Shown here piece by piece: positions 7,105 through 13,801 of a stretch of 64,000 nucleotides of DNA. The stretch comes from a virus: positions 124,001-188,000 of the IMG/VR virus record IMGVR_UViG_3300032214_000715; one strand, given 5' to 3'. Below the pieces are notes generated by a model, which saw only the letters and a list, made by a program, of their open reading frames with translations, ran no database searches and had not been told where the DNA came from. The translations under genes were made by a program, and so were the position numbers. How positions within the stretch are numbered: position 1 is the first letter of the stretch; each line of letters opens with the position of its first letter.

Positions 7105-7401
7105 CTATGCCCATTTTAAGTTAAAGTAAATTAAATCACTTTCTTTTATTTTGGCAGTGATTATAAAGTGTCTAAGACACAACTCATAGTCTATATGTGA
7201 ATGACATTCTGGAACTTCGCAACAGTGACTAATTATCCACCTACCCTTTTCACTGTCTTTCCATTCTAAAAACGGTTTCCAATCAAATATATTTGCTGGA
7301 ATATTGTCGTACTCCATAGCGTCAATATTAAATGAATGTACGATTAGATTATGAATGACAATCGGAATGCCATCAATCATTTTTACAAAATGCTGACTCA
7401 T
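7105..7401 (-). CDS. Hypothetical protein, 98 aa
   Basis: Not recognised. An acidic protein rich in Ile, His and Cys; HCCEVPECHSH (about 59-69) and a later Cys could hold a metal, although the spacing does not match a standard zinc finger. Its start overlaps the stop of the homing endonuclease gene (ATGA), so it is translationally coupled. Because the endonuclease overlaps both neighbours by ATGA, this gene probably followed thymidylate synthase directly before the insertion. Confidence 0.7.
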   Translation of the reverse strand: MSQHFVKMIDGIPIVIHNLIVHSFNIDAMEYDNIPANIFDWKPFLEWKDSEKGRWIISHCCEVPECHSHIDYELCLRHFIITAKIKESDLIYFNLKWA

Positions 7402-8225
7402 ACTGCCATTTTCTTTATGTGATGTTGATAAAATATACTTCTCTTAGCGGGCATTGATTGTCTAGACATTCTTTCGATTGTCAATGACACATTCGCTATA
7501 GATGTCTTAAACTCATCCGCAATAGCTTTTAGACCATACACCGTTTTTGTGGAGGCATCTGGATAGATAATCTTATATTGTTTTGTATATGATTGGTCTT
7601 CTGGTTTTGCTCCTTTATTCCAAGGTGTTCTACCTCTGAGTTTGACGAGTGTTTCTTCAGAATGTGTTTTGCCGTAGAAGTAGTTTTTAGCCCCACTTCG
7701 ATCATAAGTTTGACAACTCATACATGTTTTTGCGCCTGCTGCAATTTTCACCGACTGACATAATGGACACATTTTTCTGGATATACCACCAAGCCATCTA
7801 CCATTTGATGATCCCTTAGAGTGCTCAAATCTTTTACATCTCTCTTCTTTCGTCAACATTGCCAATTTCTTCAACATGGTCTCAGTTCTTCTCTTTATAA
7901 TGAATTCTTTATATGGGTGATTAGATAAGTTATCTCCGCCACCCACAGAACCAATGTTGTATCCATCAATGTTGTTATCTATATACGTTTGTTCCAACGC
8001 ATACAATTCTTTTTTTGTTTGAAAGTTAGTTTCCTCGACAATGTAGAACTTGAATTTATCCAATCCATACTTGTTCACCGCTCGTTGTAGATAGATACAA
8101 TGATGACGATTATGTTTCAGTCCACGTTTATGAGTGGTGAATCTCTTCACGATGTTCATGGAACTACCGTAGTATTTTTTACCACTTTCTATGTGTTCAA
8201 TACAATAGATTCCTTGTTTTTTCAT
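7398..8225 (-). CDS. Free-standing GIY-YIG homing endonuclease (Seg-like)
   Basis: The 275-residue protein starts with a GIY-YIG nuclease domain: GIYCIEH (5-11), KKYYGS (16-21), candidate catalytic Arg28 and metal-binding Glu78. A NUMOD-type DNA-binding tail follows. It holds a zinc-ribbon-like CPLCQS ... CMSC cluster (about 153-170), NUMOD3-like NGRWLGG and YFYGKTHSEET motifs, and a C-terminal helix-turn-helix-like region GLKAIADEFKTSIANVS. Such enzymes cut a cognate site in related phages that lack the gene and so spread themselves. The gene overlaps thymidylate synthase (ATGA) at its start and the 98-residue gene at its end. In T4 the td gene carries the GIY-YIG enzyme I-TevI inside an intron. 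Here thymidylate synthase is uninterrupted and the enzyme sits next to it. Confidence 0.9.
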   Translation of the reverse strand: MKKQGIYCIEHIESGKKYYGSSMNIVKRFTTHKRGLKHNRHHCIYLQRAVNKYGLDKFKFYIVEETNFQTKKELYALEQTYIDNNIDGYNIGSVGGGDNLSNHPYKEFIIKRRTETMLKKLAMLTKEERCKRFEHSKGSSNGRWLGGISRKMCPLCQSVKIAAGAKTCMSCQTYDRSGAKNYFYGKTHSEETLVKLRGRTPWNKGAKPEDQSYTKQYKIIYPDASTKTVYGLKAIADEFKTSIANVSLTIERMSRQSMPAKRSIFYQHHIKKMAV

Positions 8226-11220: not shown

Positions 11221-11245
11221 AAAAGACCCGCCAATGCGGGTCTAT
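11221..11245 (-). terminator. rho-independent terminator after the VWA/metallopeptidase gene
   Basis: Minus-strand hairpin GACCCGC-ATTG-GCGGGTC followed by TTTTTC, 16 bases after the stop of the VWA gene. Confidence 0.8.
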
Positions 11246-11260
11246 ATTTCATCGAAACAC

Positions 11261-12547
11261 TTACTCTTTGAAGTAAGCCCAAGTGCCAAACGGGGGCTTA
11301 ATAGTATCGTTACCGTGAATGATCCAAGTAACATCGGTGAAATTCTCATCGCCCCATGAACCGAACGGATATCCGTCAGTAAACACGATCAGCCGCTTGG
11401 TGTCCTTGTCGCGAGTCTTTAGATGATCAAAGATAGCGTCAAAGTCAGTGCCGCCACCCCCAGTTGGCTCGTATGAATCAATGGAATCCAGATTGTCACT
11501 GTTGAAGTCTTGAGCGTTGTAAACCGCAGTATCAAAGCAAAATACATGTACACGATAGCTATCAAAAGACTCCATGATTCCACGAACCTCACCAAGAAAT
11601 TGTGCTGCCTGCTTATTGCTAATTGACCCACTCATGTCAATAGCGACGGCAATATCAATTTCTTCACCAGGAGTCATTCCAGGCATAATAGCGTCCATAT
11701 GCCAACCACGACGACTCGGGCGAATAAAAGAATAATCGCTGCGAATAGCACTGGTCAGATTAGTTTGAATCAGTTCTCGCCAAGGCATTTTTGGCTCAGT
11801 AATTTCCTGAATCATTCGCTGAACTCCAGCTGGAACGTTTCCTGCCCCGTCACAAGAACGAGCGGCAGCAATAATGTTTTGCTTGATTTCCTGACGCAAT
11901 TGCTCACGCTCAGACTCAGACATAGGAGTGGGACGCTTTCCGCGCTTGCCGTCCTTGTCACCATTGCCATCACCTTCACCGTCTTCGTCTCCGTCAATGT
12001 GATCGTCAAGCATTTGATCAATTAGATCGTCAATATTGATCTTCTTGGCGTTCTTCATCAAATCGTCATAAATTTCTTCGGCTGGCTTGCCGTCATACTT
12101 TGCTTCATACAAGCAAGGAACAGTCTTGATAAATTCGCCAACCTTATGACGCTTCAAGTCTGCGTTAACAGCATAGTCATCGGCAATGTTCCAAATTTGA
12201 GGATCACGAGATTCGCGACGGCCCATGTGATCGTAGCAAACGTGAAGTACTTCGTGACCGAACAAGAATTCTACTTCGCCGCGAGTCAGCATCATAATGA
12301 AGCGACTATTGTAGTAAAAATTACGACCGTCGGTGGCAGCAGTGGACAGCCACTCATCAGCGTTAACCAACTTCAATCGTGTAGCCAGATTGCCAAAGAA
12401 TGAATTCTTAAACAACAGTGACACTCGCGCGCCAATAAGACGCTCACGTGCCTGATTGTCAATACTAGACTCTGTTGGGCCAATGAGCTTATCCAGCTTA
12501 GTGTTGCGAGACTTCTTGCTCTTCGTGGGATTCAGTACTTCTGACAT
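11261..12547 (-). CDS. VWA-like protein with N-terminal putative metallopeptidase domain (DUF2201-type)
   Basis: A 428-residue two-domain protein. The N-terminal half has a zinc-peptidase helix GHEVLHVCYDH (H98, E99, H102) followed by WNIADDYAVN (119-128), the arrangement seen in bacterial metallopeptidase-VWA fusions. An acidic, low-complexity linker (about 180-200, many DGD/EGD) joins it to a von Willebrand A domain with the MIDAS motif DMSGS (304-308) and a later VFTDGYP. The C-terminus is short. Bacterial homologues are encoded next to MoxR-type ATPases and are thought to act as substrate adaptors for them. That pairing is preserved here with the gene upstream. Own promoter and terminator; codon use is GC-richer than the late genes. 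Confidence 0.88.
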   Translation of the reverse strand: MSEVLNPTKSKKSRNTKLDKLIGPTESSIDNQARERLIGARVSLLFKNSFFGNLATRLKLVNADEWLSTAATDGRNFYYNSRFIMMLTRGEVEFLFGHEVLHVCYDHMGRRESRDPQIWNIADDYAVNADLKRHKVGEFIKTVPCLYEAKYDGKPAEEIYDDLMKNAKKINIDDLIDQMLDDHIDGDEDGEGDGNGDKDGKRGKRPTPMSESEREQLRQEIKQNIIAAARSCDGAGNVPAGVQRMIQEITEPKMPWRELIQTNLTSAIRSDYSFIRPSRRGWHMDAIMPGMTPGEEIDIAVAIDMSGSISNKQAAQFLGEVRGIMESFDSYRVHVFCFDTAVYNAQDFNSDNLDSIDSYEPTGGGGTDFDAIFDHLKTRDKDTKRLIVFTDGYPFGSWGDENFTDVTWIIHGNDTIKPPFGTWAYFKE

Positions 12548-12569
12548 ATATATCTCCTATTGATGTTAT

Positions 12570-12598
12570 ATTCTAGCAGTATATGTATTTTCTGTCAA
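12570..12598 (-). promoter_or_regulatory. sigma70-type promoter for the VWA gene
   Basis: -35 TTGACA (12598-12593), 17-bp spacer, -10 TAGAAT (12575-12570). It overlaps the far side of the terminator of the MoxR gene, so each gene of the pair is its own unit. Confidence 0.8.
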
Positions 12599-12600
12599 AT

Positions 12601-12629
12601 AAAAAATGGCGTCCGTAGACGCCATTTTT
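12601..12629 (-). terminator. rho-independent terminator after the MoxR-type ATPase gene
   Basis: Perfect 12-bp stem AAAAATGGCGTC / GACGCCATTTTT with a 4-base loop, flanked by A/T tracts, directly after the MoxR gene stop and before the VWA promoter. Confidence 0.85.
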
Positions 12630-12640
12630 AATGGCTTTTA

Positions 12641-13744
12641 TCAGCTACGAGCAGCATCAAGAATGTACCTGCCGTACTTCTTGTGAAACTCATCAAAGCA
12701 GGCCAGCTTTGACGGCTCCAGAGGAACACCGTATTGCTTGATGGCGATACGAGAACCAAGAATAACCAACTCAGTCTCAAAATTGTTCATCATGAACATG
12801 ATAAAGTTGTTAGTCATCTCGGCCAACTTTTCACGCTTGAGTTCCTTCTTGTCCATCAATGCCTTGAGTTCGTAGCAAAGAGAAACAGTCAGAGAGTACA
12901 TAGCCGATACTTCCTTGACCTTGAGTTCCTTGACCTTACCAGTCAGAACGTCAATCGCCTCGGGCAGTTGAGAACTGAACTTGCGGTGAGCTTGAAACTT
13001 AGCAGCAAGACCCTCGCCGACAGCACCAGCCACCAGAGTGAACAGTGTTTCACCGTCCATGTCCTCGTCCTTCAGCAGTTCGCTAACGAATGTCCAAGAC
13101 CGCGGAGTAGCGAAAGCACGACTGGCAGACTTTGAATCAAAATCATACATATCTTGCTTGGCGAAACTCAGATAGCCAACCACATCACTGTGAATACCCT
13201 TGGCAGTGGCCCACTGCTGCCAGCTAGGGAAGTCAGGGCGCATTTCCACGTGAATGAAACGATTGGCAAGCGGCATAGGCATGCGGAAAGTCACACCCTT
13301 GTCAGTCTCGCGATTACCCGCAGCCACAATCACCACGTTCTTAGGCAACACATACTTGCCAACACGACGATTCAGAATCAGTTGATAACCAGCAGCCTGA
13401 ACAGCAGGAGCGGCAGAATTCATCTCGTCCAGAAACAGAACCACGATGGGATACTGGCTGGCAAATTCTTCGTCAGGAAGATCCACTGGAGGTGCCCAGT
13501 CCATCTTGCCGATTTCCTTGTTGAAGAATGGGATGCCACGAATATCAGTGGGCTCCATCTGCGCCATACGCAGGTCAATCATGAACCCACCCAGTTCCTG
13601 AGTAATTTCACTGACGACATCGGACTTGCCAATTCCAGGAGGGCCCCACAAAAACACGGGACGTTGAACTTGAAACGCCTTCAGCAGAGCCTTGCGGGCC
13701 TGAATAGAGGTTACGGTATAAGAATCAGAGACTTGAACTGCCAT
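12641..13744 (-). CDS. MoxR-type AAA+ ATPase
   Basis: The true start is the ATG at 13744 (MAVQVSDSY) with ribosome site AAGGAG. An in-frame extension upstream runs through the promoter and is rejected. The 367-residue protein has Walker A GPPGIGKS (34-41), Walker B VLFLDE (102-107), sensor-1 Asn in AAGNRETD (142-148) and an arginine finger candidate in LANRF (159-163). The order and spacing fit the MoxR/CobS branch of AAA+ proteins, which act as chaperone-like remodelling ATPases with VWA partners. Cyanophages often carry a CobS-like ATPase of this kind. The partner is encoded next to it. The role in infection is unknown. Confidence 0.9.
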   Translation of the reverse strand: MAVQVSDSYTVTSIQARKALLKAFQVQRPVFLWGPPGIGKSDVVSEITQELGGFMIDLRMAQMEPTDIRGIPFFNKEIGKMDWAPPVDLPDEEFASQYPIVVLFLDEMNSAAPAVQAAGYQLILNRRVGKYVLPKNVVIVAAGNRETDKGVTFRMPMPLANRFIHVEMRPDFPSWQQWATAKGIHSDVVGYLSFAKQDMYDFDSKSASRAFATPRSWTFVSELLKDEDMDGETLFTLVAGAVGEGLAAKFQAHRKFSSQLPEAIDVLTGKVKELKVKEVSAMYSLTVSLCYELKALMDKKELKREKLAEMTNNFIMFMMNNFETELVILGSRIAIKQYGVPLEPSKLACFDEFHKKYGRYILDAARS

Positions 13745-13772: not shown

Positions 13773-13801
13773 ATTATAAAAGAAAGACGATTTATTGTCA
13801 A
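13773..13801 (-). promoter_or_regulatory. Consensus sigma70 promoter (TTGACAATAAAT class)
   Basis: -35 TTGACA (13801-13796), 17-bp spacer, -10 TATAAT (13778-13773): a perfect match to the bacterial consensus, 30 bases upstream of the MoxR ATG. Confidence 0.9.

Follow-up and report, generated by a model that had tools for sequence, protein, structure and literature searches.

The 64,000-nucleotide stretch of viral DNA analysed here (the window, corresponding to bases 124001–188000 of a 239,163-base virus record) carries adjacent genes for a MoxR-type AAA+ ATPase and for a protein that joins a putative metallopeptidase domain to a VWA-like domain. This pair is real, complete and conserved, and represents a new instance of a phage pair that has already been described. 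With a probability of roughly 0.6, the two genes constitute an early-transcribed MoxR/VWA remodelling machine, whose client is likelier to belong to replication, transcription or host takeover than solely to virion assembly. The genes themselves, their intact motifs, their conserved linkage, their promoters and a MoxR-like predicted fold were observed directly, and upon them a ring, its docking, a chaperone action and a time of function are proposed. The identification of a MoxR ATPase with a metallopeptidase/VWA partner, put forward in an earlier note on this DNA, was thus supported by sequence, co-occurrence, residue conservation and fold comparison.

Gene pair and genomic context

The VWA gene is placed downstream of the ATPase gene on the same strand, with a gap of 93 nt (Table 1), and the interval 11261–13744 previously assigned to the pair was right. 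The ATPase ORF starts at the ATG at position 13744; a longer TTG-started ORF (to 13891) was considered an unlikely start, since it begins upstream of the –10 box and the ribosome-binding site. The same record codes for tail-sheath, baseplate, head-decoration and giant tail-fibre proteins, with T4-type tail genes, and the ATPase/VWA block adjoins giant tail genes, while nucleotide-metabolism genes are abundant around the pair. An ORF at 7398–8225 resembles, by eye, a GIY-YIG homing endonuclease and has a few bases in common with the end of the thymidylate synthase gene.

Table 1. Features of the ATPase/VWA region, in window coordinates
Feature	Position	Strand	Remarks
MoxR-type AAA+ ATPase, 367 aa	12641–13744	–	phrog_1297; N4 gp24 family
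DUF2201_N putative metallopeptidase + DUF2201 VWA-like protein, 428 aa	11261–12547	–	phrog_1314; N4 gp25 family
Conserved third gene, phrog_15894, 240 aa	9893–10615	–	Candidate partner or merely syntenic
σ70-type promoter of the ATPase gene	13773–13801	–	TTGACA-17-TATAAT, 12/12
Separate σ70-type promoter of the VWA gene	12570–12598	–	TTGACA-17-TAGAAT, 11/12
Terminator-like hairpin between the genes	12602–12629	–	12-pair stem; listed on the + strand by the scan, minus reading also ends in a T-run (by eye)
Terminator-like hairpin past the VWA gene	11224–11243	–	
Walker A GPPGIGKS, ATPase residues 34–41	13622–13645	–	G39-K40-S41 invariant in 13 divergent homologues
Walker B LFLDEMN, ATPase residues 103–109	13418–13438	–	D106 invariant, E107 at least 90% in 13 divergent homologues
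HExxH motif HEVLH, partner residues 98–102	12242–12256	–	H98 and H102 in 138/138, E99 in 136/138
H107	12227–12229	–	138/138 distinct proteins
D124	12176–12178	–	138/138 distinct proteins
MIDAS DMSGS, partner residues 304–308 (D304-S306-S308)	11624–11638	–	D304, S306 and S308 kept in 13 members
T367, MIDAS completion	11447–11449	–	
D391, MIDAS completion	11375–11377	–	

The MoxR-type ATPase

The ATPase presents the whole AAA+ core, composed of Walker A, Walker B, sensor 1 and arginine residues, and N144 (sensor 1), R162 and R215 were invariant in the 13 divergent homologues. Pfam recognized the AAA family (2.5e-6), with AAA_5 above its cut-off and AAA_3 just under its own, and the protein matched phrog_1297 at 4e-93. 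When an AlphaFold model of moderate confidence (pLDDT 74) was compared with the PDB by Foldseek, the best 13 matches were NorQ chains, from NorQ and NorQ/NorD structures, followed by CbbQ; as modelled, the fold is that of the MoxR type and not of another AAA+ clade. By sequence profile, the nearest solved relative was midasin (4e-23), whose ring operates with its own MIDAS domain. A link to the CobS-like ATPase that the earlier note mentions for cyanophages was not supported: phrog_249, annotated as porphyrin biosynthesis and taken here as the CobS-like group, was matched only weakly (5e-5, 24 bits over 116 residues, versus 313 bits for phrog_1297), and no cyanophage sign was found for the window virus.

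The VWA/metallopeptidase partner

The partner was matched by the Pfam families DUF2201_N, a putative metallopeptidase (5e-41), and DUF2201 VWA (1e-16), and by phrog_1314 (1e-108). It combines a DxSxS...T...D metal site, a VWA fold and an adjoining MoxR gene, as found in VWA/MIDAS partners, with a zincin-like arrangement in which HEVLH is accompanied by the further ligands H107 and D124, proteolysis being putative. In its AlphaFold model (pLDDT 73, moderate), the VWA part matched integrin I and Rea1-MIDAS domains; the N-terminal half gave no confident fold match in the structure comparison, and its sequence profile matched the minigluzincin MJ1213 weakly (E 0.001). All key motif residues of both proteins could be located, and the domain matches, well beyond chance, agreed with those to families, confirming that the two members are present with intact motifs, as first noticed.

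The label 'HNH endonuclease', carried by phrog_1314, N4 gp25 and many RefSeq phage records, is without domain support. A reading of the partner as an HNH endonuclease has this label in its favor, but it is contradicted by the domain search, in which Pfam shows no HNH domain and the DUF2201_N and VWA-like domains span nearly the whole protein; such an identity is therefore very improbable.

An alignment of 13 members from phages and plasmids, with 21–47% identity to the window proteins, revealed that H98, H102, H107, D124, N128, D304, S306 and S308 of the partner were kept throughout, and N128 was also found in all 138 distinct proteins. The catalytic Glu, E99, was missing from two of the 138, Atu_ph07 (HQILH) and the rV5 reference record (HGVGH). 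The rV5 VWA gene (NC_011041, L118 3024–4379) contains a frameshift besides HGVGH, which may reflect a sequencing fault or real decay; this apparent loss was set aside, as the record is frameshifted and the relatives ECML-10 and VB-EcoM-WM (L208, L209) carry HEVGH in an intact frame. Only one genuine family member, Atu_ph07, was thus found without the catalytic Glu. The earlier note had regarded the loss of key residues in homologues as the observation that would speak against its reading; the ligands were preserved in every protein and HExxH in all but two, so that this objection mostly fails, with Atu_ph07 as its remaining instance. Since the ligand residues are kept more strictly than E99, the essential activity of the partner may be something other than proteolysis.

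The same pattern bears on a role as an insertase of metal cofactors, or as an activator, acting on a metalloenzyme of the phage or the host, similar to NorQD or CoxDE, in which the HExxH domain would carry metal instead of serving as a protease. The conservation of H98, H102, H107 and D124 above the catalytic Glu, exemplified by HQILH in Atu_ph07, is in line with this role, as are NorQ being the closest predicted fold and the plentiful nucleotide-metabolism genes nearby. However, the Glu is retained in 136 of 138 proteins and no metalloenzyme gene is conserved beside the pair across lineages, making an insertase an improbable explanation.

Co-occurrence and distribution

In a tblastn screen of 50,697 phage records, 854 matched the ATPase and 795 matched the partner, with near-equal numbers per host genus (ATPase/partner: Escherichia 213/214, Pseudomonas 112/112, Klebsiella 70/70, Erwinia 34/34), the exception being Vibrio (114 versus 98). 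Among metagenomic viral loci, 104/106 presented both genes, nearly always as ATPase then VWA on one strand, with a spacing of 31–1839 nt. Both genes were found in 186 of the 199 fetched loci, so that the co-occurrence check proposed by the earlier note came out positive; in the remaining loci, the contig or the locus ended close to the gene, or only short flanks had been fetched, with a single exception. In that locus (L079, 11089–16188), the ATPase is present and the VWA partner is absent within 5 kb, and two genes with radical-SAM-like cysteine motifs (by eye) occupy the place of the partner.

The two genes were directly adjacent in N4, Munch, CBB, phAPEC6, Atu_ph07, S-TIM54 and the Synechocystis plasmid pSYSA, separated by one small gene in roseophage DSS3phi2 and LIT1, and by four genes in the PA5oct-like phage 30-2. 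In rV5 and KNP2, the pair was split into divergent operons about 4 kb apart and both genes were kept despite this separation, which argues for the functional coupling of the ATPase and VWA genes. Both phrog_1297 and phrog_1314 also include the corresponding proteins of N4 (gp24/gp25), phAPEC6 and cyanophage S-TIM54; the ATPase of rV5 falls in phrog_1297, and the VWA protein of the rV5 relative VB-EcoM-WM in phrog_1314.

The pair was found in podoviruses, myoviruses and plasmids, and a scan of bacterial genomes with the phage alignment yielded just two loci, including one fragment. The 75-kb Acinetobacter 'plasmid' pRBH2-3 (NZ_CP110465) is probably an N4-like phage genome, since it carries a phage-type RNA polymerase gene together with the pair. 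In the Burkholderiales plasmid pRK1-1 of Cupriavidus (L202, 3934–7158), the AAA and VWA genes are separated by a DUF3150-type gene, which perhaps encodes an adaptor.

Promoters and timing of expression

The strong σ70 promoters reported by the earlier note were confirmed for both genes at the scores given in Table 1, and its suggestion of use before late genes was backed by these promoters together with the status of N4 gp24 and gp25 as middle genes (PMC4193335). In homologous loci, which share ancestry and whose counts are thus not independent, a promoter matching at least 11/12 positions within about 160 nt was found upstream of the ATPase in 57% of 72 loci, versus 0.07% of shuffles, and upstream of the VWA gene in 66% of 70 loci, versus 0.5% of shuffles; the frequency for other genes of more than 200 aa was 9–13%. 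Moreover, the ATPase promoter is a member of an array of TTGACAATAAAT elements scattered across the phage genome, apparently the early promoter of this phage. Elements beginning with TTGACAATAAAT were observed at window positions 1702, 13801, 14211, 14469 and 14752 (minus), with more along the record, and precede many small genes. The T4 late box TATAAATA was found upstream of neither gene in about 70 loci, and two structural ORFs, 58579 and 53873, are immediately preceded by T4-type late boxes.

These observations weigh on the role published for the pair. By analogy to p618/p892 of Acidianus two-tailed virus, Iyer et al. (2021; PMC7824862) suggested that the pair serves virion assembly and processes structural proteins, as a morphogenesis machine for the assembly or proteolytic maturation of tail or head structures. 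Several arrangements agree with this proposal: the block lies next to giant tail genes in the window, the pair sits among structural genes in Rak2-like phages, including the structural region of CBB, and the S-TIM54 pair adjoins a virion protein gene and an Hsp20 gene. The virions of phAPEC6 were also listed with the ATPase gp265c (MoxR ATPase; 6 peptides, 19% coverage; PMC7247149), but the VWA partner is absent from that list and carry-over is suggested, because thymidylate synthase is listed too. In the CBB virion table, neither CBB_216 nor CBB_217 is listed within the portion covering those gene numbers. Furthermore, the promoters are of the early type and the late box is absent, and the podoviruses, myoviruses and plasmids that share the pair have no virion in common, plasmids making none. 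A morphogenesis machine is consequently a possible but rather unlikely reading. Owing to the early promoters without a late box and to the presence in podoviruses, myoviruses and plasmids, the probable action of the pair is an early one, on a complex of the phage or the host, and not mainly in virion assembly.

A device for host takeover or counter-defence that dismantles a host complex would be compatible with promoters of the early type, with rIIA lying in the region of the pair in both rV5 and N4, and with the occurrence of the pair on plasmids. Nevertheless, the defence-system models of PADLOC and NCBIfam were matched only as generic AAA, and the pair belongs to the core genes of N4-like phages infecting many different hosts, an uncommon situation for counter-defence genes; a device of this kind is regarded as doubtful.

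A third conserved gene

A gene of phrog_15894 followed the VWA gene on the same strand, at a median of 982 nt, in 155 of the 156 metagenomic loci with room for it. It was present in 82 phage records, among whose listed matches all were large phages save one 86-kb record, and it was near the pair in those phages checked, including Atu_ph07 at about 7 kb; other copies are found in L214 (5055–5708), L211 (4637–5326) and L204 (7753–8394). The window copy ends in a basic, AT-hook-like C-terminal stretch, KRAGRPKK. The phAPEC6 member, gp262c, was represented by one virion peptide, and neither phrog_15894 nor its neighbour gave an informative structure or Pfam match. A universal third gene was rejected, since no phrog_15894 gene lies close to the pair in N4-like, rV5-like, cyanophage or plasmid loci. 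Its linkage alone proves nothing, because the thymidylate synthase gene and a 98-aa gene are likewise syntenic with the pair, and it is considered a candidate partner in this lineage. It is tentatively conceivable, though improbable, that in large T4-related phages the pair and phrog_15894, as client or adaptor, form an early three-part machine with a novel job in replication or transcription.

Comparison with known systems

The novelty implied by the earlier note was not sustained, since the same pair, peptidase domain included, was already described for jumbo phages in 2021 (PMC7824862) and the gp24/gp25 family has long been known as core genes of N4-like phages. The group 2.2 jumbo phage pair (ASV44729.1/ASV44728.2, PMC7824862), compared by means of Atu_ph07, shares gene order and domain architecture with the window pair, at about 37–39% identity; Atu_ph07 differs in its HQILH and in being a 490 kb phage. 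Similarly, N4 gp24/gp25 belong to the same two families, adjacent and in like order with all motifs present, but with 25% identity, in a podovirus with its own RNA polymerases and without phrog_15894 nearby. Adjacent or nearly adjacent MoxR and DUF2201 genes also occur in Synechocystis pSYSA, Thermus oshimai and Cupriavidus, with about 28–37% identity and, in Cupriavidus, the intervening DUF3150-type gene.

NorQ/NorD of denitrifying bacteria likewise combine a MoxR ATPase with a VWA partner, NorQ being the protein whose fold best matches the ATPase model, and their target is nitric oxide reductase; NorD is not known to carry a DUF2201_N domain. In NorQ/NorD, the MoxR ring works on the VWA partner and, via this partner, on the client (PMC13036017). 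The p618/p892 proteins of Acidianus two-tailed virus (cited in PMC7824862 and PMC9964418) are also a viral MoxR-VWA pair and, as described, are set apart by the lack of a peptidase domain, the archaeal virus and the involvement in tail development. No experiments on any phage member of the pair were found in the literature. Small Vibrio N4-like phages were stated to lack gp24/gp25 (PMC9525291), yet these are termed rIIA/rIIB-like there, which makes the statement unusable, and the relevant passage of a CRISPRi-ART study (PMC11879866) mentions N4 knockdowns for rIIAB only.

Proposed role

In the remodelling machine proposed here, both genes would be transcribed early in infection, each from a strong promoter of its own, by an RNA polymerase of the host type. 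The ATPase is predicted to form a hexameric ring, on which the VWA domain of the partner would dock through its MIDAS site, and ATP hydrolysis would then pull or twist the partner, or a client bound to it, similar to what happens in NorQ/NorD and midasin. Binding of the client would fall to the zincin-like, metal-binding domain at the N-terminus, which would perhaps also cleave it or load metal into it. Because both genes appear to be transcribed early from promoters of their own, the likeliest client would be a complex of the replication, transcription or host-takeover phase.

The family extends to more than 850 phage records with the ATPase and nearly 800 with the partner, which is widely mislabelled, including the laboratory phage N4 of E. 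coli K-12. The promoter and distribution evidence moves the likely role of the pair from the published virion-assembly proposal toward an early-phase client.
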